Positions 8,721 to 60,122 of a stretch of 64,000 nucleotides of DNA are shown here, piece after piece. Within the stretch, counting starts at the first letter, position 1, and the number at the start of each line of letters is the position of its first letter. Where the stretch lies: contig NC_080046.1 in NCBI RefSeq assembly GCF_012489685.1, positions 47,083,176 through 47,147,175 of the forward strand, written 5' to 3'. Both the position numbers and the translations under genes were made by a program. The notes beneath the pieces are model-generated. The model saw only the letters and a list, made by a program, of their open reading frames with translations, was not told the DNA's origin and searched no databases. This DNA comes from Lotus japonicus. Taxonomy: Eukaryota; Streptophyta; Magnoliopsida; Fabales; Fabaceae.

Positions 8721-8961
8721 GGGTTTTCTAAATGACCCATGATAAAGTTTGGGTTAAATAACTCATCATCCAATCACATTGGAGATAAATGAGTTTAAAA
8801 TAAATTAATAAATAAAATATAGATATTCCAACTCATTTACCCCAAAATTAAAGACAACAATGTCGGAAAAATAAAAGCGAGAAGGTAATGTCCATAAGCA
8901 ACGTCACTGATCCTGCAAAAATAAGAATTACAATTAACTAAGGACCAAGAAATCTATATCA

Positions 8962-9363
8962 AATAGGGTTAAATGTGTTCTCCGTCTCTGAACTTTGAGC
9001 GAGATCTGATTTTCGTCCCTCGCCGGAAAATCTTCCTAGCGCCATCCTCAAACTCAATTGTTTGTACGGAAACCGTCCTTGCCGCTGATATAGCTCAGAC
9101 AGCCGTGCACGTGGCATGCCACGTCATTTAATGAAATGACATGGCATTTAAAATTTTAAAAAGAAAAAATTATTTAAATGCCATGTCATTTCATTAAATG
9201 ACGTGGCATGTCCACGTGCACGGCTGCCGGAGCTATATCCGCGGCAAGGACGGTTTCCGTACAAACAATGAGTTTGAGAATGGCGCTAGGAAGATTTTCC
9301 GGCGAGGGACGGAAACCAGATCTCGCTCAAAGTTCAGGGACGATGAACATATTTAACCCTATT
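8962..9363. mobile_element. 402-bp near-palindromic MITE
   Basis: Left end AATAGGGTTAAATGTGTTC and right end GAACATATTTAACCCTATT are inverted copies. The arms stay complementary for nearly 190 bp, meeting at an A-rich centre near 9165. Blocks such as GAACTTTGAGCGAGATCTG and CGTGCACGTGG recur inverted. Non-coding; transcribed, it would form one long hairpin. Confidence 0.88.
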
Positions 9364-10060
9364 AAATATAGTTATATATGACCAGCTTAATAAGGGAAGA
9401 GAATAATTAACTTCATAGAAAGATCAGATTTCTAACAAAAATAACATCCATTAATCATATTGCTAGGGTCACACGATATGGTCACTACAAGAGGATTTGG
9501 TTAAAACAATGGGAGACAAGTGAAAAATCTCATTGAGTATGATTTGTTTGTAGAAAAAGAGAAGGAAGCAGAAATCACTCAATTTTAATTACTTTATCCA
9601 AATGCTGCAAGTTAATTTCTCTAGGAGACAGTAGGGGTAGGCATCCTTTTATTTCACTAACGGGATACTAATGACTCTTTTTTTGCAACTCTTTTATTGC
9701 TACAAAGCACTAGCACCACAGAGATTTTAACTTAGGTGCCACCCAAATAACAAAACACACATACAACTATACAAGTAGGAAATAGAGAGAAACAGAGTTA
9801 CAGGGGAACATGAACCAGAAACAACGAAAAAGAAATACAAAGAAACACAAAGACTCAATCCATTAGGTTACCTCTCTCTCTCTATCACCCTCTCTCTTAC
9901 ACCCTCAATGGTATATCACCATTTTCTCTCCAAATTAATCACTTGTGTTTCCCAAAAAAGCAAAATAACAGTTTCCTTTTTAATAATCAAGCAAATAACA
10001 TTAAGAGGTACAACACACGCACAGAGAAAAACACAGCAAAAAGCAAACAAGTATCCAACC
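9364..10060. other. no gene recognised
   Basis: Non-coding DNA with short purine-rich and CT-rich stretches, for example CTCTCTCTC near 9885. No inverted ends or frames of note. Confidence 0.45.
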
Positions 10061-35962: not shown

Positions 35963-36198
35963 TGAGTGTGTTCACAGTTTCACCTCCATGTTTCTCCAAT
36001 TCCTTGTCTACGCTCAACACATCTTTTAATAATGGAAACCACTCGATAGAGCATTTCAATCCGAAACATGAAAATAATCCCTATTGATATATCTTGTCAA
36101 CTTAACAACTACCATGTATAGCAATTATAACAATTGACAACAAAGAGATAATTTCATGATTTTAAAGAACAACTACGGAGTCCAAGTCCCAGATATAA
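35963..36198. repeat. 233-bp direct repeat, left copy
   Basis: Nearly identical to 37162-37395, with about five differences. It begins TGAGTGTGTTCACAGTTTC and ends CAAGTCCCAGATATA. Confidence 0.93.
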
Positions 36199-37161
36199 CA
36201 ATTGACACGTTTGGTACGTTGTATTGTATAAGGTCTGATAATATAAGGTCTGATAAGATAAGGCATGATAAAATTTTAATACTATACAGTGTTTGGTCAT
36301 ACACTGTATAATTTGGTGGCAACACTGGTGGTGTGGTAGTGGTGGTATTGGAAGGTGATGATGGTGGTAGTGGTGGTGGATGGTGGTCTTGGTGGCGGTG
36401 GTGGTGGAGGTGGGGGCGGCGGTGGTGGTGGTATGAAGGTATCAACGATGGTGGAGCATGGTGGTGGTGGTAGTGGTTGCAGTAGTGGCAGCGGTGATGG
36501 TGGAGGGTGGTGGTGATGGCGATAACGATGAATAGAGCGTGGTTGCGGCGGCAACGGTAGTGGCGACAACGGTGGAGCGATGGTGGTGGAGGGTGGTTGT
36601 GGTGGCGACGAATGGTGATGGTGGTTGTGGTGGTGGTGGCGGCGACGGTGGTGGTGGGGAGGTGGTGGTTGTGGTGGCAACGACAGTTGTGGGGTGGTGG
36701 TGGTGCCGACGACGGTGGTGGCGGCAGTGACGGTAGTGGTGGAGGCGGTGGTGGTGGAGGGTGGTTGTGATGGTGGTGGTGGCGACGGTGGTGTGGTGGT
36801 GGAGGTGGTGGTAGTGGTGGCGACGGTGGTGGTGGAGGGTGGTTGTGGTGGTGGCGACGGTGGTGCCGGCGACGGTGGTGGCTGCAGTGACGGTGGTGGT
36901 GTTGGTAGTGGTGGAGGCGGTGGTGGTGGAGGGTGATTGTGGGGGCGGTTGATTAAATATATTGAAGTAGTTTATACATTGCACTTTTATCATGCCTTAT
37001 CCATCATCTATAGGGTGGATTAAATAATCCATCATTTTGATGTATAAGAGGAGATTGATGTATAAGCTTATATACAATGTGAGCACCAAACAATAGATAA
37101 CCTCGTAATGTATTGTACAAGTTTATACCATCACGCCTAATACGGTGTACCAAACGAGCCC
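36199..37161. mobile_element. inverted-end element with a large GGT-rich core
   Basis: The left end has CGTTTGGTAC and the right end GTACCAAACG or close, with imperfect pairing inside (AAGGCATGAT against ATCATGCCTTA). This suggests a hAT-like non-autonomous element. It is enclosed by the 233-bp direct repeats, an unusual context. Confidence 0.5.
36310..36945. repeat. GGT/GGC trinucleotide-rich tract, about 630 bp
   Basis: Dense GTGGTGGTGG and GGCGACGGTGG runs. Long histidine/proline or glycine/valine open frames on both strands follow from the base bias and should not be read as genes. Confidence 0.95.
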
Positions 37162-37395
37162 TGAGTGTTGTCAGTTTCACCTCCATGTTTCTCCAATTCC
37201 TTGTCTACGCTCAACACATCTTTTAATAATGGAAACCCCTCGATAGAGCATTTCAATCCGAAACATGAAAATAATCCCTATTGATATATCTTGTCAACTT
37301 AACAACTACCATGTATAGCAATTATAAAAATTGACAACAAAGAGACAATTCCATGATTTTAAAGAACAACTACGGAGTCCAAGTCCCAGATATAA
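37162..37395. repeat. 233-bp direct repeat, right copy
   Basis: Pairs with 35963-36198. It begins TGAGTGTTGTCAGTTTC. Confidence 0.93.
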
Positions 37396-44811: not shown

Positions 44812-47800
44812 ATGATGATAATACAGACGGATAAAATGGCTGCTCCTTCGTCACGGGAGCGTGCACAGCGCCTCTATGATAAGGTATTGCTTTTCTCTCA
44901 TTTGCTCATATCCTGAGCTAGATACCTGATAAGATAATGAACTGACAATGATTTATGGGTGTAAATCTCTTATAATTTTCCCAGCAAAATCTATTAGGAA
45001 TCTGGTCAATGTTACTATCTGACTAAAACACACCGTTTTGGTATTATGGGTCTATCAGATTTTTCCTATTTGTTGGTCCATATAGAGTAATGAGTTTTAG
45101 TGAGCTTTCCTTTTTCTTCTAATGGGCTGATGATTCTACATCGCCTTGTGGAGTTTTCTCTATTTACTATGACTTCGTTTTAGAATCAGTGGTAGGGCTT
45201 GTTATCAGCACACACTGGTGTACTCCAATATTTGTTGGCCAGAACTATGAATGTATTTTATGTTCAGGGTCTCTTGTTTAGATGACTTGAGCATCTGGTG
45301 CAACAACATATCATTTGGTGATTTACTGTATGGATAACTGGTTGCAATAATAATGTATAATGCTAATCCTTCTCTGAGAGTATTTTAGACTTTAGTATAC
45401 TGTGAATTTTAAATTCTATGAATTAAGTTTAAATGAGATACAAACTGTTTAAATATCTTATTCACAAAAACTTTGACTAGATCAAAGTACCCTTATATAA
45501 AAGGCTGGTATAGAATATAGATTGCCATTATCTAAGGAAGTGACAATACATTTGCACTGATCAGTGAATCAAATCGCTAATGTAGATTTTTTTTCCAAGA
45601 CTTAAGTTCTAGTTCTACAACATCGAATGAAAAAGACATTTATTAAGAATTCTTAATGATCTTGGATTTTCTCTTGCATAATACATAAAAAATGATTGAA
45701 CATTTCAATGAAATCAAACATGCTATTGCTTTCTGTGTTTTTCTTCTTGTTTATTAATTGATTGGCATTTTGTTTGATGAGATGAATGCTAGAAGTCTGG
45801 TTTGTAACATTTCAATTATTTGTTACCTAGAACCTCGAATTGGAGAATAAGCGCCGGAGGTCAGCTCAGGCACGGGTCCCATCAGATCCGAATGCATGGC
45901 AACAGATGCGTGAGAACTATGAAGCAATAATTCTTGAGGATCATGCTTTCTGTGATCAGCACAATATTGAATATGCTCTCTGGCAGTTGCATTATAAGAG
46001 GATTGAGGAGTTTAGGGCATATTTCAGTGCTGCTCTTTCTTCTACCAGCTCAAACTCATCTCAGGGAGGGAAAGGCCCTGCACGTCCTGATCGGATAACT
46101 AAAATAAGGCTGCAATTCAAGACTTTTCTTTCAGAGGCAACTGGATTTTACCATGACCTTATTATGAAAATTAGAGCAAAGTATGGGCTTCCCCTTGGTT
46201 ACTTTGAGGATTCAGAGAATCGGATTGTGATGGAGAAAGATGGAAAAAAATATGCTGACATGAAGAAAGGTTTATTATCTTGTCACCGCTGTTTAATATA
46301 CTTAGGTGATCTTGCTCGTTACAAAGGAATGTATGGTGAAGGTGACTCATTAAACCGGGAGTTCACAGCAGCTTCTAGTTACTACTTTCAAGCTGCATCT
46401 CTTTGGCCTTCAAGTGGGAATCCACATCATCAGGTCTTTAGATTCTTGCATCTATTATATTTTTTGCCATTGCTTAATATTGTTGGCTTGTGGTTCATAG
46501 TTACTATTTTCCATTGTAACGAGTTTGTTCTTTGCAGCTTGCTTTATTGGCTTCATATTCCGGGGATGAGCTGGTGGCTATTTATCGGTATTTTCGTAGT
46601 CTGGCCGTGGATAGTCCATTTACAACTGCAAGAGAGAACTTGATAGTTGCATTTGAGAAGGTAATGAATGTGAGCATGAGTTTGCTCTTGTGATATCGTG
46701 CTTTTTCACCCAGATTGTGTCAGATCGTTATTGTTTGAGTAGTATGTGTTATTCTCTGTTTTTTGGTGTTTTATGAAGCTTAATTGTTGTTCATATTTTG
46801 ATTGCTGCCTGCCCACTGAAGTTTTATTATGAGGGTGAGAGTTAGTTGATTTTAATGTTAATGTTTGATGCTGAAATGAGGTGCATTAATAAGTGGAAGT
46901 TGATACATTTCAGATTGGGTTGCAAGTCTTTAAAACATTATTTATATGTTGTGTAGATGTCCGGGATGGATTTTATGCGAGTATTTTATGTTCATAATTA
47001 TATATGGTGTCATAAAAAATGCTGCGAAGAACCATCCTTTGAAAGGTAGTCTGTTGATCACTTGATATGTACCATGGATCACGTTGGGGCTTAAAAAATG
47101 TCCTTTAATATGGTTTATATGTTCATTTGTGTTTGCCACCCACTTGTTTTCATGCATTTGTCTAATTTATTGTATATGACTGATCTTTTGTCATTATATT
47201 AGAAGTATGCTGACTACTAGTTACTTTAATAATTCCATTATAGAATCGTCAAAGTTTCGCTCAGCTTCCTGGAGATGCTAAATCTCTTGCAGTCAAAGAA
47301 CCTTCTGGGCGACTAGCTGGCAAAGGAAGAGGAAAAGTGGAAGCAAAACTTGCAACAAGGGGTACTGGTGTTGATACCAGTCCTAGAGCAGATGGAGCAT
47401 CCAGTATACAAGAGACTTACAAATTCTTCTGTACTCGGTTTGTCCGGCTAAATGGAATATTGTTTACACGAACAAGGTGTATATTCTTGACATTTTCACT
47501 ATGTCTTTACATGCATGATACTAATGATTAACATGTTCTAACTTCCCCCCTTTGTTTTCTCATATACCTTGTCGATAGCCTCGAGACCTTCACTGAAGTT
47601 CTTGCTCTTGTTAGCACTGGTCTGCGGGAACTTCTGTCTTCAGGGCAAGATGAGGAGCTGAATTTTGGCTCTGATATTTCTGAGAATAGACTTGCCATTG
47701 TCAGAATTGTCTGCATTCTTGTATTTACAGTTTATAATGCGAATAAGGAATCTGAAGGTCAAACTTATGCAGAAATTGTTCAGCGTGCTGTTCTGCTTCA

Positions 47801-49478
47801 GAATGCATTTACTGCAGCTTTTGAATTGATGGGTTACATAATAGAGAGATGTGCAGAGCTGAGTGATCCTTCTTCTAGTTATCTCTTACCTGGCATTCTG
47901 GTTTTTGTTGAGTGGTTGGCTTGTTATCCAGATCTTGCTAAAGGCAATGATTTGGATGAGAATCAGGAAAGTTTGAGATCAAAATTTTGGAATCATTGTA
48001 TATCCTTCTTGAATAAATTGCTTTCAGTTGGGCCTGTGTCTGTTTTTGATGATGAAGAGGATACTTGCTTTAATAACATGAGCAGATATGAGGAAGGGGA
48101 AACTGAAAACCGACTTGCTTTGTCGGAGGACTTTGAGTTAAGGGGATTTATTCCGCTTCTCCCTGCACAAACCATCTTGGATTTTTCAAGGAAGCATTCC
48201 CTTGGAAGTGATGGTGATAAGGAAAGAAAAGCCCGGGTCAAAAGAATTTTAGCTGCAGGGAAGGCTTTAGCAAGTGTTGTTCTGGTTGATAAAACAATGA
48301 TATATTTTGATTCAAAGACAAAGAAATTTCTCATTGGTGTTCAGCCTCAATCCTCAGATGATTTTGTTCAAGCCGCCTATTCCGTCATTCAGACCGCAGA
48401 AGAATCACAAGAAAAACCAGCAGCAGATAAATCAAAGGTGGAAGTTGTTCAGTCAAACCAACATCAGTATATGGAAGGAGATGAGGATGATGAAGTTATT
48501 GTTTTCAGGCCTATGGTGTCTGAGATGCGAGCTGATGTGGCTGTCTCATCATGGACACCCCATGAGGGTATGGAGCCTGTTCTAAAAGCTTCAGGAGGAG
48601 ATTTAAAATTTCATGTTAACTCTACTTCTAATCCACTCAACAATCTACATCATCAAACAATGCCGATTTCTGTTAGTGGTATGATTCCTCAACACCTGCA
48701 ATCAGTTCAGCCGCATACATCAAGGTGGCTGGATGAGGAAATTTCTCTCGCTAACAATTTAAAAGGTCTTGGGTTATTTGAGAATGGGCATGTGATGAAA
48801 CCTAGCTTACAAGAGGCTATAGGCATCTCAAATCATGTCGGACTTCCTATTCCTATCCAACAATCTATTGGTGTGGATACTAATGTGTTTCATGGTCTCT
48901 CCAAAGCTTCAGAATCTGTGGTACCATCCAAAATTGACGCTATTGCATCTTCAGGAGTAGTTTCTGATGCTTTTGCAGTGAAGACATCAGCCATGCAACC
49001 TGGTATGAGAAAAGCCCCTGCCCCAGTCAGTCGACCTGCTAGGCACCTTGGACCTCCTCCTGGTTTCAATCATGTTCCTTCTAAACAAAGTATTGAATTC
49101 ACTACTTCAGATTCAATGAGTGGGAATCCAATTCTCGATGACTACAGTTGGTTGGATGGGTATCAATTGCAGTCATCAACCAAAGGCTTAAGCTCGAATG
49201 GTTCTCTTGCTTATTCTCAGTCAAATTCTTACCAACTCAGTAACAATGGCTTGAACGGGAATATCAGCTTTCCATTTCCTGGAAAACAAGTTCCATCTGT
49301 ACCTCTTCAGGTGGAGCAACAGAATGTTTGGCAAGATTATCAACCTTATGAGCTTTTAAATTCACACCATGATCAACAGCTTCAGCCACAACAGCTCACA
49401 ACTGGAACTCAACAGTTTTCTCCTCTGCCTGAGCAATTTCAAGGACAGTCAATCTGGACAGGTCGTTACTTCGTGTGA
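44812..49478 (+). CDS. SMG7: nonsense-mediated mRNA decay factor SMG7
   Basis: Five coding exons keep frame: 44812-44883, 45831-46433, 46538-46660, 47244-47476 and 47579-49478, giving 976 residues, close to the roughly 1,050 known for plant SMG7. It starts MMIIQTDKMAAPSSRERAQR. The EST1/SMG7 14-3-3-like and helical-repeat region follows (NLELENKRRRSAQARVPSDP, DLARYKGMYGEGD, SLARL-type helices such as YRYFRSLAVDSPF, then YKFFCTRFVRLNGILFTRT). The C-terminal half is low in complexity, with an acidic EGDEDDEVIVF motif and a PPPGFNHVPS motif, ending WTGRYFV. SMG7 binds phosphorylated UPF1 and promotes decay of target mRNAs; in Arabidopsis it also acts in exit from meiosis. The start has an in-frame stop just upstream (44806). 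The sequence looks intact. Confidence 0.95.
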
Positions 49479-49912: not shown

Positions 49913-52900
49913 TATAGAAGTGTTTCAAAGAATATTTCTGGTGTGTGTTATTCACTCAACAGAGCAACATTTATACACATGAAACCCTATTCTATTAAAG
50001 GAATGATATAATTCCTTTCTTAAATTAAGGAAATAATATCTGTACACCTAATTTACAGCTAACATAGAATTTGACCCACTAATTTAGCTAACAGAATATT
50101 TGACTTATCTTAACACCCCCACTCAAGTTGGTGCATGGATATCACACATTCCCAACTTGAATAAAGACTCATTGAACACCTTGCTTGCCACTCCTTTAGT
50201 GAGAACATCAGCTAACTGTAATTCAGATCTTACAAATGGAAATGAAATTATTCCAACTTCAAGCTTCTCTTTGATGAAATGTCTGTCAATCTCTACATGT
50301 TTTGTTCTATCATGTTGGACAGGATTATGAGCAATTGTTATTGCAGATGTATTGTCACAGTACAAATTCATAGCTTCATTCGGTTTAAAGCCCAAATCTG
50401 ACAGAACATTTCGTACCCACAGAAGTTCGCACACCCCAAGTGCCATGCCTCTAAACTCTGCTTCAGCACTAGATCTTGCTACTACCGGCTGTTTTTTACT
50501 CCTCCAAGTTACAAGATTCCCCCCTACAAACATAAAATATCCAGAGGTAGACCTTCTATTATTTTTGGAACCTGCCCAATCAGCATCAGTGTACCCTTCA
50601 ACCTTTAAATTTCCATGATTTGAGAACAGAATTCCTTTTCCGGGAGTGGACTTCAAATATCTCAAAATCCTCTCAACCACATCCATGTGAGGCTTGCGTG
50701 GATCATGCATAAATTGACTCACGACATTCACTTCATAGGTAATATCTGGACGTGTATGAGACAAGTAAATTAGTTTTCCCACCAGCCTCTGGTACCTCCC
50801 TTTGTCTGTAGTTTCTGAATCTGTGCATTGAAAGAGCACATGATTTTGTTCTATTGGTGTATCAACTGGTTTACACCCTAGCAACCCAGTTTCAGATAAT
50901 AAGTCAAGAGTATACTTTCTTTGGCATAGAAAAATACCATGTTTTGACCTAGCCACTTCAATACCCAAGAAATATTTGAGGTTTCCAAGTTGTTTCATCT
51001 CAAATTCAGATGCAAGGTACTGTTGCAAACTAGAAATCTCATCCTGGTCATTTCCAGTAACTATCATATCATCTACATAGATAATCAAGGCTGTAATTTT
51101 ACCTTTTCGTTTCTTCAAAAACAAGGTGTGTTCAGAGTTACTTGCTCTATAGCCGAAAATCTTCATAGACTTAGTGAACCTTCCAAACCATGCTCTTGGT
51201 GATTGTTTCAATCCATATAGAGCCTTCTTTAATTTGCAAACCTTCATTCCATTTGAATCTATCATGCCTGGTGGGGAATCCATATAAATTTCTTCTGAAA
51301 TTTCTCCATGTAGGAAGGCGTTTTTCACATCAAATTGTAAAAGAGGCCAATCTTGATTTGCTGCTAGTGACAAAAGTATTCTCACAGTGTTGAGTTTGGC
51401 TACCGGCGCAAACGTCTCTTGATAATCTACACCATAAGACTGAGTGTAACCTTTAGCCACTAGTCGTGCTTTATACCTCTCAATAGTTCCATCAGCTTTG
51501 TGTTTGATTGTGAAAACCCATCTGCAACCCACTGTTTTCTTCCCTCTTGGTAAAGGCACAAGATCCCAAGTGTTGTTTTTTTCTAAAGCTGCCATCTCCT
51601 CAACCATTGCTTCGGTCCATCTAGGATCTGCTAAAGCTTCCTGTACATTACTAGGAATAGAAATTGAGGATAATTGAGATACAAATGATGCATATGACTG
51701 AGATAACTTGTGAGATGACACATATGACTGAGATAACTTGTGAGATGACACATATTTACCAATGGGATATTTAACTTTGGCTTGGAGGTCAGGTACATAT
51801 TGGATTGGAGGTTGACCACGGTTAGAACGGGGTGGAAGATTATATTGGACAACAGTAGACTCAGTGTTTGGCATGTTTATGGTCTCATGCAAACAAGGTT
51901 CAATTTCATGATCAGTTTCATGCAAACGAGAATCAATTTCAGAGTTGAAAACACGATCCACTTCATCTATAATTGTAGTATCCGAAATGGGATCGAGAGA
52001 TACCTCTAAAGAATCATGTTGAACCTGTGGAGAAGATTGAGCTAATTGGTTATGATCAGAAGGCGATGTATCATCTAAAGGAGAATTTCCCATATCTAGG
52101 ATTGGCTTACTTCCTGCAGAGTGATTTTCACAAGATAATTTATCTTCACAATATAATTGTGTATCAATATCAAACATACTAACATCCTGATTTTGCACTT
52201 CACTAACATTCCCCCCTTGAAGTGTAGAATCAACATAAAAAAATTTATCTTCATGAAATGTCACATCCATAGAAATATAAAATTTCTTTGACGTTGGATG
52301 GTAAGCACGATAACCTTTTTGAGTTGATCCATACCCAACAAAAACACATTTAATAGCTTGTTCTTCAAGTTTCGTTCGTTGATGTGGGTGTAAATGTACA
52401 TATATAACACATCCAAAAACATGAGGCAGTAAATGAACTATGGAAGGAAGCACACAATGATCAGACAACACATCTAAAGGTCTTCTAAAGTTCAGCACAC
52501 TGGAAGGGGTTCGATTAATCAAATAAACAGCAGAGTTCACAGCTTCTCCCCATAAATGAGATGGAACATTACCATCTACTAGTCACTTCTAATATATGTC
52601 TATTTTTCCTCTCAGCCACTCCATTTTGTTGGGGAGAATAGGAACATGTAGTTTGATGCAAAATGCCTTTAGAGTTCATAAACTCTATTAATTCAATTTT
52701 CAAAAATTCTCCTCCATTGTCTGATCTAATGACCTTTACACATGTGTTAAATTGTGTAACTATCATTTGATGAAAGGAACGAAACACATCACATACTTCG
52801 CTTTTATGTTTAAGCAAATAAACCCAAGTTACCCGAGTACAGTCATCAACAAAACTAAAACCATTTTTTTCCATTATTTGTAGACTGCGGGGCGGGGCCC

Positions 52901-54722
52901 CAAACATCTGTATGAATTAAAGAGAAAGGAAAAACTTTTTGTTATTGCTTAAGGGAAAAACAGCATGATGACTTTTCGCCATTACACAAGTTTCACAAAG
53001 AAAATCTGAAATATTGCATTTATGAAATAACGACGGAAATAATTTTTTCAGATAACCAAAAGAGGGATGTCCCAGCCGTCTATGCCATAACCAGATTTCC
53101 TTTTTATTTTTATCTTGTATGTTCTCACTTGCAAGATAAGCCCACTCCTTTATGAGTTTTTTGTGAAACATTTTCAAGATAATACAGCCCTTCACTTTCT
53201 CTACCACTGCCAATCTTCTCCTTGGTCTGTAGATTCTGAAAAAGACAACGGGTTGGGTAAAACGAAGCAACACAAGAATGAGATTTGGTTAATTTGCTAA
53301 CAGAGAGAAGATTACAATACAACTTAGGAACAAATAAAACATTCGGTATTGATAAGGAGGGTGAGAGGGATACAGTACCAACACCTTCAATAGGAGATGA
53401 AACTCCATTGGCATTGATAACGATAGTTTTAGAACTTTTAGGGGAAAATTTAGTAAATTTATGAGGATCACAAGTCATATGGTCAGTAGCACCTGAATCA
53501 ATTATCCAATCGCTATCTTTAGTAACAACATAAAGACTAAGAGCAGAGTTAGATATACCTGACTTGGTTACAAAACCAGCAGCAGTAGAAATATGGCTCT
53601 TAACATTTTCTGCCTTGTTGTTGGGATTAGTTTTGCCTTTTGGATGCCAATCTGGATAACCATGGATTTTAAAACATGTTTCCTTGACATGATTATCCCC
53701 ATTGCAGTGGGTACACTTGCGGAATCCGTTCTTAGGATACTTCTTGACAGCAAGGGCGGATCCCTCAGTAGACTCACTACCAAGCATAGCCTCTTGGCGA
53801 TTTGCCTCTGCACAAACAGTTGCATAAACTGATTGAACATTTGGAAGAGGAGTGGTAGCAAGGATACGGCCACGAACTCCATCCAAATGTGAGTCCAAGC
53901 CAGCCAAAAACACATAAACTCGTTGAGAATTAACCATCTTGTTATACTTCTCAACATCTTTAGGGCATTCCATGGTACAATCTTTAATAGCATCATACTC
54001 CTGCCATAACCTCTGCAATTTACCAAAGTAGGTAATAACAGATCCTCCATTTTGCTGAGTAGAGATTACCTCACGATACAATTGATATGCTCTTGATGCA
54101 TCTTGGTTGGCTGAGTACGTCTCCTTCACAGTTTCCCAAATTTCCTTTGCCGTAGCTAAGCGGATGAAGAGAGATCTGGTTTCTTTGGTCATGGAGTCCA
54201 GAAGCCAAGACTTGACCAAGCAGTTTTCATCTTCCCATGCTTCATATTCATCAGATTCCTTATTTTTTGGGTGCTGCCTTTGATCCAGAGATGTAACCCC
54301 AATGTTTTCTGCCTCTGATCTTATTCTGCGCATTCAACGACCACTCGACATAGTTGGTGCCGTCAAGTCGTTCTGGGGTGAGCGCTTCATGCATATGGGT
54401 AGCAGCGGAAGTCCCAGAATTAGATTTATTTTTATCAAGGGAAGCCATCAGAAATTATTCAAAGAAACCAACAAAGCACCGTTCCTATATTGTGGAGGCG
54501 GTGTTGGCTCTTGATACCATATAGAAGTGTTTCAAAGAATATTTCTGGTGTGTGTTATTCACTCAACAGAGCAACATTTGTACACATGAAACCCTATTCT
54601 ATTAAAGGAATGATATAATTCCTTTCTTAAATTAAGGAAATAATATCTGAACACCTAATTTACAGCTAACATAGAATTTGACCCACTAATTTAGCTAACA
54701 TAATATTTGACTTATCTTAACA
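49913..54722 (-). mobile_element. complete Ty1/copia retrotransposon B in the SMG7 3' region
   Basis: The 203-bp LTRs at 49913-50115 and 54520-54722 differ at three positions by eye. GCTGC flanks the element on both sides (49908-49912, 54723-54727). The primer site TGGTATCAAGAGCC is at 54506-54519 and the polypurine tract GAGTGGGGG (minus strand) is next to the left LTR at 50116. LTR termini are TG...TA. All coding regions are present but frame-broken. Its transcription runs opposite to SMG7. Confidence 0.96.
50123..54448 (-). pseudogene. copia B gag-pol, frame-disrupted
   Basis: Gag starts at ATG 54448 (MASLDKNKSN). The frame changes near 54260, near 53150 and again before 52907, and once more between 52569 and 52540. 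Domains are still legible: CCHC knuckle CTHCNGDNHVKETC, protease DSGATDH, LWHRRLGHP, integrase VDDCTR and SDNGGEF, reverse transcriptase YVDDMIVTGND, and RNase H DWAGSKNNRRSTSGY. The longest open piece is 50123-52540 (805 codons: end of integrase to RNase H). VSSHKLSQSY occurs as a tandem repeat. Enzymes are seen; none can be made as one chain, so this copy is not autonomous. Confidence 0.93.
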
Positions 54723-57057: not shown

Positions 57058-57605
57058 GCAGAGGCGGAGCCAGGGGTGGCCTATAGGGCCTTGGGCCATG
57101 GCCCCCTTCCACTCTCCAATATATCTCTCTATACTACTACTACTACATATATAACTAGTTTAGAGTAATGTTGTGTTTTTAAGTTCAAAAAAAATGTTGT
57201 GTTTTCTTATTTCATCCTTCCTATAAATTTTACAAACTAGATGGAAAAAAGTTATGTAAGCAGATTTGTTTGAGGATTTAAAGAGGATAAAGCATTACAT
57301 GTTTTTTTTCATACTATGTTGCGAAGTGTTATCTTTGTAACGGTTATGATTTCATCATTTTTTTCTTGGTTTTTAAAGCAAAATTTATATTGGTATAGTG
57401 ATGAGGAAAAATATATGATATACACCCTTCTAAAAGGGGGAAAAACAGCAAAATCAGAAAGCAATCCCACACAAGATAACAACTAGTTCATAGAATCAAG
57501 AAAAAAAAAACTTAAAGCCTATGCGTGACCACATAGAGAACACCCAAAGCCCCCAAAGACCCCAAATCCAAATAACACCCAAAGCCACCCTTTGCCAAAA
57601 CTAAG
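57058..57605. other. left part of an older transposon-like unit
   Basis: GGCGGAGCCAGGGGTGGCC at 57065 and GGCCATGGCCCCC resemble ends of plant hAT-type relics. A C-run end at 60376-60410 may be its right side, with the LTR element nested inside. Diverged and uncertain. Confidence 0.3.
57167..57205 (+). mobile_element. ultra-short retroposon insertion
   Basis: AATGTTGTGTTTT occurs at 57167-57179 and 57193-57205. It encloses 13 bases, TAAGTTCAAAAAA: a short stub with an A tail on the plus strand. Confidence 0.7.
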
Positions 57606-57822
57606 TGTTAGAAATCACATGGATTTCTTCAATGGGATCCCAAACATAGCAAAAGGGAGAATAGGAAAATTGATTCCAATATTCATTCATTATTAAAATT
57701 GATTATGGAAAAATACAATGAGCTTGCTATATATAGCATAATTGCCTAACTAACTATTAACTATCTACAATGTGGTCCTCATACTATCCCTACTCACTAA
57801 ATGTGATTCTTGTATTTTAATA

Positions 57823-57831
57823 TCCTCCCGC
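57823..57831 (-). promoter_or_regulatory. polypurine tract of the compact LTR element
   Basis: GCGGGAGGA on the minus strand directly before the 3' LTR; it primes plus-strand DNA synthesis. Confidence 0.8.
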
Positions 57832-57948
57832 AAGCTGGAAGTAGTATTTGGTAGTACATCCAGCTTGAAAATAGAACTAAACAAAAAATGTAATGATGAA
57901 AATCAAATTCAGTATATAAGCAGTAGCAATCTTCATAGTCCGCAGCTA

Positions 57949-59985
57949 TCAAGTCTCAATCCATATCATGTACTCATAAACTGACAGCCTTCTCTTATCC
58001 TCTAAACAGAACTCATTCAGCATAACAAACATAATGCTTGATCCATCTTGAACCTTGGTTCCAAAGAGGAAAAATTGATTATGGGAAGTTACCATCACTG
58101 GTTCACTCTCATCATTAAGAAACTCTGCAGTATTAATACACTGCTGCAGTAGTTGTTGAACTATTTGCTTTATTGCTTCCAAGTACTGATCATGCAAATA
58201 CTCAAGTAAGCACTTGATGAACAATGTGGCAGCAGCAACAAAAACAAGTGGAATTGAGTTGCCAAACCATAAGAAAACATGAGCAATCACTGCATCAAAA
58301 GGCCCTGCCCCAGAAGATCTCTGCCTCCAGATAAGAGCATTTAGCACAAAGAATACTTCAGATGAAATAGCAAGAAATATGGATGTTGTCTTGAGAGTGA
58401 TTTCCTTCCATTTTATTCTCTTGAACATCTTATAAAGACATAATGAAAAATATCCAGCACAGAATACAGATATCACCAATTCAATCTCCTTCTCAGCAGT
58501 GTTAGCAATGGAGTAAAATGAATCAGTTCTGAAATAAGGAGACATAGGCACTTCTAATGAAAACTTGACATCTTCAACACATAAAAACTTATCTCCTACA
58601 TTCACAATCAACAATCTCAAGAGCCCAAGTTCTTCTCTGCAACTGTTACAACAGACAAGCACCAATACATCCTGATATATGCTCAAATTTGAAGCACAAC
58701 CTATTTGTTTATCAAATGACTCAAGCTGAACTTGCTCCAAACTGCTTAATGAGCATCTATCAATCATTGGTGCATTTACACAAACACCTTGTGTGCAGCT
58801 CCTGAATCCACCAGGATCAAGTAAAATTGACTTAGAAGAATCTCCTATCATTGTGTCATTTTCACAAACAGCTTGTGGACAACACCAAAAACCATCAATC
58901 TCAAGCAACAAGTTCGAACCATTCATCCAATTAAAGGAGAAATCCCATAATCCCAGCCAAGACAATTGAAATTCTTTGATTGAAAGAAGGATTTGAGTTA
59001 CCTTTGTGACACAACTTTCTCCAAAAGACTGATCGATGATGTGAGGAACATCAATTTGTTGAGTAACAGAATTCTTCATGAGACATGGAGAATAGGAAGA
59101 TGAATCTGCTCCAAGATTAATCACAGCCTCACTAAAATTTCCAAAAGCATAAGCATTGGTGGCTGGTTTCCATGCCAGAAATTGAATATTCTGATCAGCA
59201 AAGAACGAAAGACGCGAAATAAGGGAAGATGCTACACCAAGATCAGTGGTCGACATTGAATCAGAAGCAATGGCTTCTTCCACGAGAGAAATTGATGAAG
59301 CGGAAGCTTCAAGAATTTTCTCAGGCACAGTTTCAACCATGGTTGAATCAGAGAAGGACGAAGAACCAGAATTGGAAGTTGTAGTAGCATCGCGAGTGGA
59401 CGATGAATCCAGCAATGAAGAAGAAACGAAGAAACCCTTGCTGATAGTGCCAAAAACGAACGGCTCAATCGCCGGTTTCCACGCCGGAATCTTGATTTCT
59501 CGATCGGCGAAGAAAGAAACAGGAAAATGATCAAGAATCTTCTCAGAAATCGTTTCATCTATGGTAGAATCAAAGCACGCAGAGGAAAGAGGAACTGGAG
59601 CATGCAAGACAAAATCCTCATCTTCAACCTTCACGAATGATTCTTGCACCATGAGAGAATCAGAAGCCATGACCATCGAATCAGAGAACGATGAAGGAGA
59701 AGATGAAACTACAACAATGTCTCCAAAATCAGTGACCAAATCAGAGAAATTGAAGGAAGATAATCTCGCAGTGGTTCTCGCAGTGGTGCTGCGACGGCAG
59801 CGCTTGAAGCCACGTCGAGCAGGTCGGAGGAAGCGCTCGTAACTCGACGACGGCAGTGGCGGCGGAAGAGGCGGTGAGCTCCATTGGAGCTCTGATACCA
59901 TGTTAGAAATCACATGGATTTCTTCAATGGGATCCCAAACATAGCAAAAGGGAGAATAGGAAAATTGATTCCAATATTCATTCAT
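57949..59985 (-). CDS. 678-residue protein of unknown function in an LTR element
   Basis: The intact frame begins at ATG 59985 inside the 5' LTR, or at ATG 59901 (residue 29), which overlaps the primer-binding site. Residues 35-46 are proline-rich and 51-75 arginine-rich (FLRPARRGFKRCRR); 76-250 is serine-rich and acidic. A repeated block FFADREIKIPAWKP (158-171) and FFADQNIQFLAWKP (261-274), each followed by an FG motif, suggests a duplication. Cysteine-bearing repeats lie at 364-410 (GFWCCPQAVC, GFRSCTQGVC). Hydrophobic stretches near 501-520, 533-553 and 565-594 look like membrane segments. A palindromic TATA-like CTATATATAG at about 60025-60034 may start transcription. No gag, zinc knuckle or protease is visible. 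It could be a captured host gene, an accessory protein or a diverged gag. Confidence 0.85.
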   Translation of the reverse strand: MNEYWNQFSYSPFCYVWDPIEEIHVISNMVSELQWSSPPLPPPLPSSSYERFLRPARRGFKRCRRSTTARTTARLSSFNFSDLVTDFGDIVVVSSSPSSFSDSMVMASDSLMVQESFVKVEDEDFVLHAPVPLSSACFDSTIDETISEKILDHFPVSFFADREIKIPAWKPAIEPFVFGTISKGFFVSSSLLDSSSTRDATTTSNSGSSSFSDSTMVETVPEKILEASASSISLVEEAIASDSMSTTDLGVASSLISRLSFFADQNIQFLAWKPATNAYAFGNFSEAVINLGADSSSYSPCLMKNSVTQQIDVPHIIDQSFGESCVTKVTQILLSIKEFQLSWLGLWDFSFNWMNGSNLLLEIDGFWCCPQAVCENDTMIGDSSKSILLDPGGFRSCTQGVCVNAPMIDRCSLSSLEQVQLESFDKQIGCASNLSIYQDVLVLVCCNSCREELGLLRLLIVNVGDKFLCVEDVKFSLEVPMSPYFRTDSFYSIANTAEKEIELVISVFCAGYFSLCLYKMFKRIKWKEITLKTTSIFLAISSEVFFVLNALIWRQRSSGAGPFDAVIAHVFLWFGNSIPLVFVAAATLFIKCLLEYLHDQYLEAIKQIVQQLLQQCINTAEFLNDESEPVMVTSHNQFFLFGTKVQDGSSIMFVMLNEFCLEDKRRLSVYEYMIWIET
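59886..59900 (-). promoter_or_regulatory. primer-binding site of the compact LTR element
   Basis: Minus strand TGGTATCAGAGCTCC directly after the 5' LTR. It is the same tRNA-Met type as copia A. It lies within the 678-codon frame, encoding residues 29-34 or so (M-V-S-E-L). Confidence 0.88.
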
Positions 59986-60122
59986 TATTAAAATTGATTA
60001 TGGAAAAATACAATGAGCTTGCTATATATAGCATAATTGCCTAACTAACTATTAACTATCTACAATGTGGTCCTCATACTATCCCTACTCACTAAATGTG
60101 ATTCTTGTATTTTAATACTAAG

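Follow-up and report, generated by a model that had tools for sequence, protein, structure and literature searches.

A multiplying family of non-autonomous LTR retrotransposons in Lotus japonicus with captured host-gene pieces in a long reading frame that is apparently kept open

The element described here occupies positions 57606-60117 (2512 bp, with the minus strand as its sense strand) of a 64,000-nucleotide stretch of the Lotus japonicus genome, termed the window, which lies on contig C6 of the 553.7 Mb assembly that was searched. At a probability of about 0.78, it is a recent insertion of a non-autonomous, copia-like Lotus family whose chimeric frame would have arisen from helper-packaged host mRNAs, and in whose source lineages the frame and, more weakly, the N-terminal protein would have been kept. 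Host mRNAs may be packaged together with element RNA in the particles of an autonomous copia element, with which the type of primer-binding site and the 5-bp target duplication would be compatible, and template switching in reverse transcription would then join host and element RNAs. Source copies would be most mobile while one long frame, starting just past the LTR promoter, reads the transcript, so that source lineages would preserve the open frame and, less strictly, the N-terminal protein, and each copy would drift once inserted. The family is a Bs1-like transducing element of an unusual kind, one that multiplies, has a shared N-terminal module with differing tails, and apparently keeps its frame open; it resembles a mobile workshop in which new chimeric genes are assembled. 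Its copies in a single genome grade from young to old, combine a common module with differing tails, have frames that are open or broken, and carry a piece traceable to a spliced parent gene. This makes it possible to test how a long frame is maintained in a non-autonomous element and how exons are shuffled stepwise by retrotransposition.

The hallmarks of an LTR retrotransposon are all found: paired LTRs, a 5-bp target-site duplication, a primer-binding site beside the 5' LTR and a polypurine tract before the 3' LTR, in agreement with the structural marks that the initial annotation had named (identical 217-bp LTRs, the CTAAG duplication, a tRNA-Met-type primer site and a polypurine tract). 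On the minus strand, the 5' LTR (59901-60117, with ends TA...CA) and the 3' LTR (57606-57822) have the same sequence, their alignment being identical at 217/217 positions. Flanking them, at 60118-60122 and 57601-57605, is the duplication CTAAG as read on the plus strand (CTTAG on the sense strand). The primer-binding site TGGTATCAGAGC (59889-59900, minus strand), which we take to be of the tRNA-Met type, abuts the 5' LTR on its inner side, and the in-frame ATG for Met29 is made up of the final LTR base and bases of this site; the polypurine tract GCGGGAGGA (57823-57831, minus strand) abuts the 3' LTR. A TATA-like box, TATATATAG, at 60022-60030 on the minus strand, starts at LTR position 88 and is the putative promoter of the LTR; the ATG of the open reading frame is LTR position 133, 45 nt past the start of this box. 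A bacterial-type promoter scan of the LTR, being unsuited to plants, was set aside. With mutation rates of 1.3e-8 and 7e-9, zero differences over the 217-bp LTRs bound the age of the insertion at up to about 0.5-1.0 My; its description as "very young" holds insofar as the LTRs do not differ, but the bound is a loose one.

The single intact 678-codon frame reported at the outset is borne out. It extends on the minus strand from 59985 to 57949, beginning within the 5' LTR, which encodes residues 1-28, near the predicted RNA start, and ending 126 bp short of the 3' LTR. The interior open run of 649 codons cannot be ascribed to chance, because the corresponding run in 1000 dinucleotide shuffles averaged 106 codons and never exceeded 207. 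The accompanying statement that the frame has no recognisable domains is correct for retroviral domains, none of which is matched by Pfam, but not for others: EMP70 is matched at residues 504-587 (E 6e-16). Residues 29-405 (58771-59901, minus strand) make up the N-terminal module, and residues 591-678 (57952-58215, minus strand) form a C-terminal tail without a Pfam match. Among the best-scored candidates of protein, Pfam, PDB-sequence and genome searches, neither of these two parts has a relative outside the element family. For residues 29-405, the protein search of the best 7983 candidates (proteins of 0.55-1.75 times the query length) returned, at E up to 1, nothing but a Lotus copy, and the single match to PDB sequences has an E of 1.8; the whole ORF protein has no match in PDB sequences at E up to 1, nor does a plant TM9SF protein match any PDB sequence. 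A fold model built from two sequences has a pLDDT of 29 and is too poor for use. Within the N-terminal module are two copies of a SFFAD...AWKPA unit, at residues 157-185 (59431-59517) and 260-288 (59122-59208) on the minus strand, with an alignment score of 86 that 0/1000 shuffles reach. The dN/dS of this internal-repeat pair is 0.28 over 53 codons (0.78 for a second pair of 26 codons), and 3/307 conditioned neutral simulations were as extreme, a test that is weak because alignments in the simulations had a mean length of 103 codons. A single near-identical protein was found for the ORF, the annotated LOC130727454 of Lotus japonicus, which agrees in every letter with the ORF of a sister copy at C1:87.5M; this public gene model is an element of the same family.

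Between the N-terminal module and the tail lie two host-gene pieces, both sense-oriented and joined with the module in one frame. Residues 410-502 (58480-58758, minus strand) are a fragment of an LRR-protein gene, 51% identical over 97 aa to the legume LRR protein Clitoria RJT34_04903 (E 3e-10); the nearest Lotus gene found, at C4:83.51M, is split by introns. This piece scores 277 against the joined host exons and 138 against the unspliced host gene. The alignment crosses both exon junctions ungapped, with one 12-nt gap inside the third exon, and the element lacks two host introns, both bordered by GT...AG. Spanning two splice junctions without introns, the LRR piece therefore derives from spliced mRNA. 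Residues 503-590 (58216-58479, minus strand) are a fragment of a TM9SF/EMP70 gene, in which the EMP70 match covers only positions 305-388 of the 517 in the profile; the piece is a fragment of EMP70 and, with the full domain absent, the ORF is not a member of the TM9SF/EMP70 family. The closest gene found, at C6:50.04M (60% identity in protein, 84% in DNA), has no intron across the matched stretch, so that this piece is uninformative on splicing. On the evidence of the alignments, capture from spliced RNA can be considered proven for the LRR parent only. A very recent capture, as initially suggested, finds no support in the divergence of the TM9SF piece, which differs by a dS of 0.32 from its nearest host gene among those found, nor in the presence at C1:124017858-124018360 (C1:124.017M, L070) of a decayed LRR+TM9SF chimera, both pieces of which contain stops and from which the fusion is judged to be old. 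By eye, the host exon end is preserved to a greater extent at the junction of that decayed chimera than at the junction in the window.

Any doubt as to whether other copies, or other intact frames, exist is removed by the genome itself, which holds copies, several with open frames: at least 46 matches were obtained with the LTR (40 of 68 candidates scored) and at least 98 with the protein (65 of 150 candidates scored). Fourteen two-LTR copies were examined, the window's and L009-L021. Read from the LTR's ATG, the frame is open for 628 codons or more in 8/14 (678 in the window; 628 in L009, with a frameshift past codon 608 by comparison with the window's frame; 674 in L011; 699 each in L013 and L014; 697 in L016; 724 each in L018 and L019), and in 6/14 it is interrupted (L010, L012, L015, L017, L020 and L021). 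In four further copies, whose element ends are undefined, the frames from the LTR's ATG are 627 (L039), 662 (L043), 546 (L054) and 673 (L056) codons long. Substitutions between the two LTRs of a copy number 0, 0, 0, 2, 1, 1, 0 and 0 in the eight long-frame copies and 1, 1, 2, 2, 2 and 1 in the six broken ones, a trend with overlap (0-2 vs 1-2) and one that open sources and decaying copies would be expected to produce. In 11/14 copies the target duplication is an exact 5 bp; the exceptions are L020, where 4/5 positions match, L009, which has none, and L013, where the 3' LTR is cut short and none is visible. Ahead of the 5' LTR of L011 (C5:8.70M) is an extra partial LTR of about 113 bp in tandem. 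The LTRs of L018-L020 are 272 bp long through an apparent internal duplication of about 54 bp, and in the LTR pair of L018 a block of about 54 bp is the sole difference, with no substitution.

Residues 1-405 are common to the family and the C-terminal half varies by subfamily. Of the family's frames, 12 start from the LTR's ATG, and all of these share the first 28 residues with 0-2 differences. Modules were compared at 25 loci (L009-L026, L039, L043, L044, L046 and L054-L056). The N-terminal module is present in 22/25 and missing from the lone-LTR loci L022, L024 and L025; it stands alone in L021 and L023, the latter adding a scrap of the A tail. The half that includes the LRR and TM9SF pieces (A) is found in 9/25 loci, namely L009-L016 and the decayed L026, with L012-L014 and L016 constituting variant A'. 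Half B occurs in 5/25 loci (L017-L020 and L039) and its LRR piece is less like that of the window (47-51%), while half C occurs in 7/25 (L039, L043, L044, L046 and L054-L056) at 96-100%. Since half C matches the four B copies other than L039 at 36-38%, and L039 carries both B and C, these two are partly related and are not independent cargoes. Pfam detects EMP70 in the window ORF, in the LOC130727454 protein and in L011 and L016, and in 0 of the 6 type B and C family ORFs scanned.

Whether the frame is kept by selection bears directly on how the family is to be understood. It may be that the element is a passenger of the Bs1 type, in which the frame is a by-product of captured coding exons with neither function nor selection and open copies are merely young, an account to which we give somewhat less than an even chance. 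The captured parts behave as this account predicts: the TM9SF piece is compatible with neutrality relative to the host gene (33 aa differences against a neutral mean of 35.0, with 105/400 simulations at or below), as it is in L016 (9/100) and L011 (23/100). Young type A copies have a dN/dS of 1.8-2.4 on 14-18 differences, A and A' differ over residues 410-608 with a dN/dS of 0.67-0.89 on 12-14 differences, and 6/14 two-LTR copies are broken. Two LRR exon pieces likewise show no significant constraint (67/200 and 25/200), and the A' copies L013, L014 and L016 have 4-6 differing sites (dN/dS 0.1-0.6), too few to read. What speaks against a mere passenger is found in residues 29-405, for which 15 pairwise comparisons among the six ORFs open there gave a dN/dS of 0.39-0.94, and 7 of the 15 were set against neutral simulation. 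Subfamily ORFs at an N-terminal dS of 0.08-0.33 are still open, whereas neutral drift of equal depth left 3, 5, 10, 1, 1, 0 and 5 of 200 outcomes stop-free in the seven pairs, and the four most diverged of the tested pairs have a dN/dS of 0.39-0.63, with 0-2/200 simulations as low. Amino acid differences are below neutral in 4/7 pairs (0/200 for window-L016, window-L018 and L016-L018; 2/200 for L054-L018) and not below it in 3/7 (window-L043, 59/200; window-L054, 36/200; L043-L054, 37/200). The tested pairs share branches, and the ORFs were picked for openness, which favours stop-free results, so these tests are indications and are not independent. It is important to emphasize that stops in a source lineage would pass to all of its copies, and open frames across diverged subfamilies are therefore informative. 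Thus, of the selection first proposed for the frame, its maintenance among subfamilies and the N-terminal constraint in 4/7 pairs lend support, but the other 3/7 pairs are at neutral. The constraint on the N-terminal part could in part predate capture. An estimate from TM9SF divergence (the whole ORF stop-free in 2/400 neutral runs, the TM9SF piece alone in 154/400) was not used, because it presupposes that all parts were captured at the same time, and a change spectrum from two proteins (12/608 residues differ, 10 of which fit transitions) was replaced by the DNA of further copies. The picture that seems to emerge from these comparisons is of a frame that is kept, an N-terminal protein that is loosely kept and a captured tail that is free to drift. 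Openness itself, rather than the protein, might be what is selected, if an mRNA-like, one-frame transcript escapes nonsense-mediated decay or is better exported; any open frame would then serve, and C-terminal parts could differ. We consider this unlikely, if well worth keeping in mind, since the frame does reach from near the predicted RNA start almost to the 3' LTR, the C-terminal parts of the subfamilies vary yet remain in frame, and the TM9SF part, neutral in its amino acids, is still open. Openness alone does not require the N-terminal amino acid changes to be below neutral, as they are in four pairs, and none of the titles listed from the open-licence literature is to the point on such a case.

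Two further explanations concern the origin of the frame. Its N-terminal part could be a gag native to the element's lineage that has diverged strongly, as the ORF is the sole gene and begins at the usual place of gag. This is improbable: Pfam matched no gag, protease, integrase or reverse transcriptase in the window ORF and no gag in 8 other family ORFs scanned, and in the neighbouring copia element at 49913-54722 this library does detect gag, Pol_BBD and RVT_2, so that it can recognize an ordinary copia gag. By BLASTP the ORF compares with the neighbour's gag at a non-significant E of 0.5. With gag and pol not found, the element appears to be non-autonomous. A single host-gene retrocopy caught by chance between LTRs, for which the spliced LRR piece might be cited, can hardly be entertained; the two unrelated parents exclude a one-gene retrocopy, their closest genes being on C4 and 2.9 Mb away on C6, which also disposes of the earlier concern that a nearby host gene had been copied, and the full LTR, primer-site and polypurine-tract anatomy and the many copies argue against it as well.

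A stronger form of the preferred reading, that of a family built on helper-packaged host mRNAs, would make this a lineage that possesses its own gene, distinct from both gag and pol. The N-terminal module would be selected as an aid to mobility, for example by binding its own RNA or helper particles, and the C-terminal half would be a replaceable slot for pieces of spliced host genes. We regard this as speculative and rather unlikely.

No autonomous partner bearing the family's LTR was found among the candidates examined. The neighbouring copia element (49913-54722, minus strand), with 203-bp LTRs that are 98.5% identical, lies downstream of an EST1-domain gene (45840-49478) that is presumably SMG7-like; it was rejected as a helper on an LTR alignment score of 92, as against 300 shuffles with a mean of 69, an sd of 9 and a maximum of 93. 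L015 and L020 (7.7 and 6.6 kb) were likewise rejected, since the neighbour's gag and pol ORFs are unmatched in them at 1e-3, and their extra DNA is taken, by eye, for other insertions. L023 does contain copia gag and pol parts, but the family piece sits inside that gag; the RT-like frame by the lone LTR of L024 shares only LTR-encoded residues with the family. The piece in L023 (2772-4072 of the locus, at C2:31.437-31.443M) is permuted within the gag of that other copia element (3' end, one LTR, 5' end), as if by insertion of a one-LTR circle or loss of both outer parts. In L024 (3134-5164 of the locus, at C1:133.02M) the lone LTR stands beside a (TA)n run and a frame in which Pfam recognizes protease, RT and RNaseH, presumably that of an endogenous caulimovirus-like element.

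Elements of related construction have been described. Bs1 of maize is an LTR element whose chimeric frame joins exon-only fragments from three unrelated host genes (PMC13317346, PMC4717578), and template switching between co-packaged RNAs is the route described for plant elements (PMC13317346). The Lotus element is similar in having intron-free host pieces in a chimeric frame between LTRs, with fragments of two unrelated host genes and with introns absent from the LRR piece. It differs in that its subfamilies share an N-terminal module and diverge in the C-terminal half, in that the frame starts inside the LTR, and in its parent genes. TRIMs are by definition very short elements without coding capacity, which the 2512-bp element with its 678-codon frame is not. 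Among small legume elements, GmaRetroS15 of soybean contains intron-free pieces of three host genes, and gene-carrying TRIMs, some of them in legumes, have 5-bp duplications, mostly at least two copies and lengths of 1,172-1,449 bp (PMC4717578); the Lotus element resembles these in its small size, intron-free host pieces, 5-bp duplication and copies, and differs from the TRIMs in length and long frame. One survey lists 672 host genes captured by LTR elements in rice and 1,343 in sorghum (PMC3726574), likewise host genes in LTR elements, whereas here a single family with a shared ORF module is at issue. Additional ORFs in plant LTR retrotransposons are described as conserved, with no function assigned, and located beside gag-pol, and those explained by transduction as occurring in one or few copies (PMC7264820, PMC11963269); the Lotus ORF, in contrast, is partly transduced yet spread through several subfamilies, with no gag-pol beside it. 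Gene capture by plant LTR elements appears, in the portions of this literature cited, mostly as single events or gene lists. Among the open-licence papers listed, no title or opening of an abstract describes Lotus gene capture, LOC130727454, a TM9SF gene taken up by an element or, in non-autonomous elements, a non-gag ORF that is conserved.

Elsewhere in the window, at 35968-37395, 231-bp direct repeats that are 97.4% identical surround a low-complexity interior, and no target duplication was seen around them. At 8954-9371 there is a near-perfect palindrome of 418 bp (90.5%) that is foldback-like.
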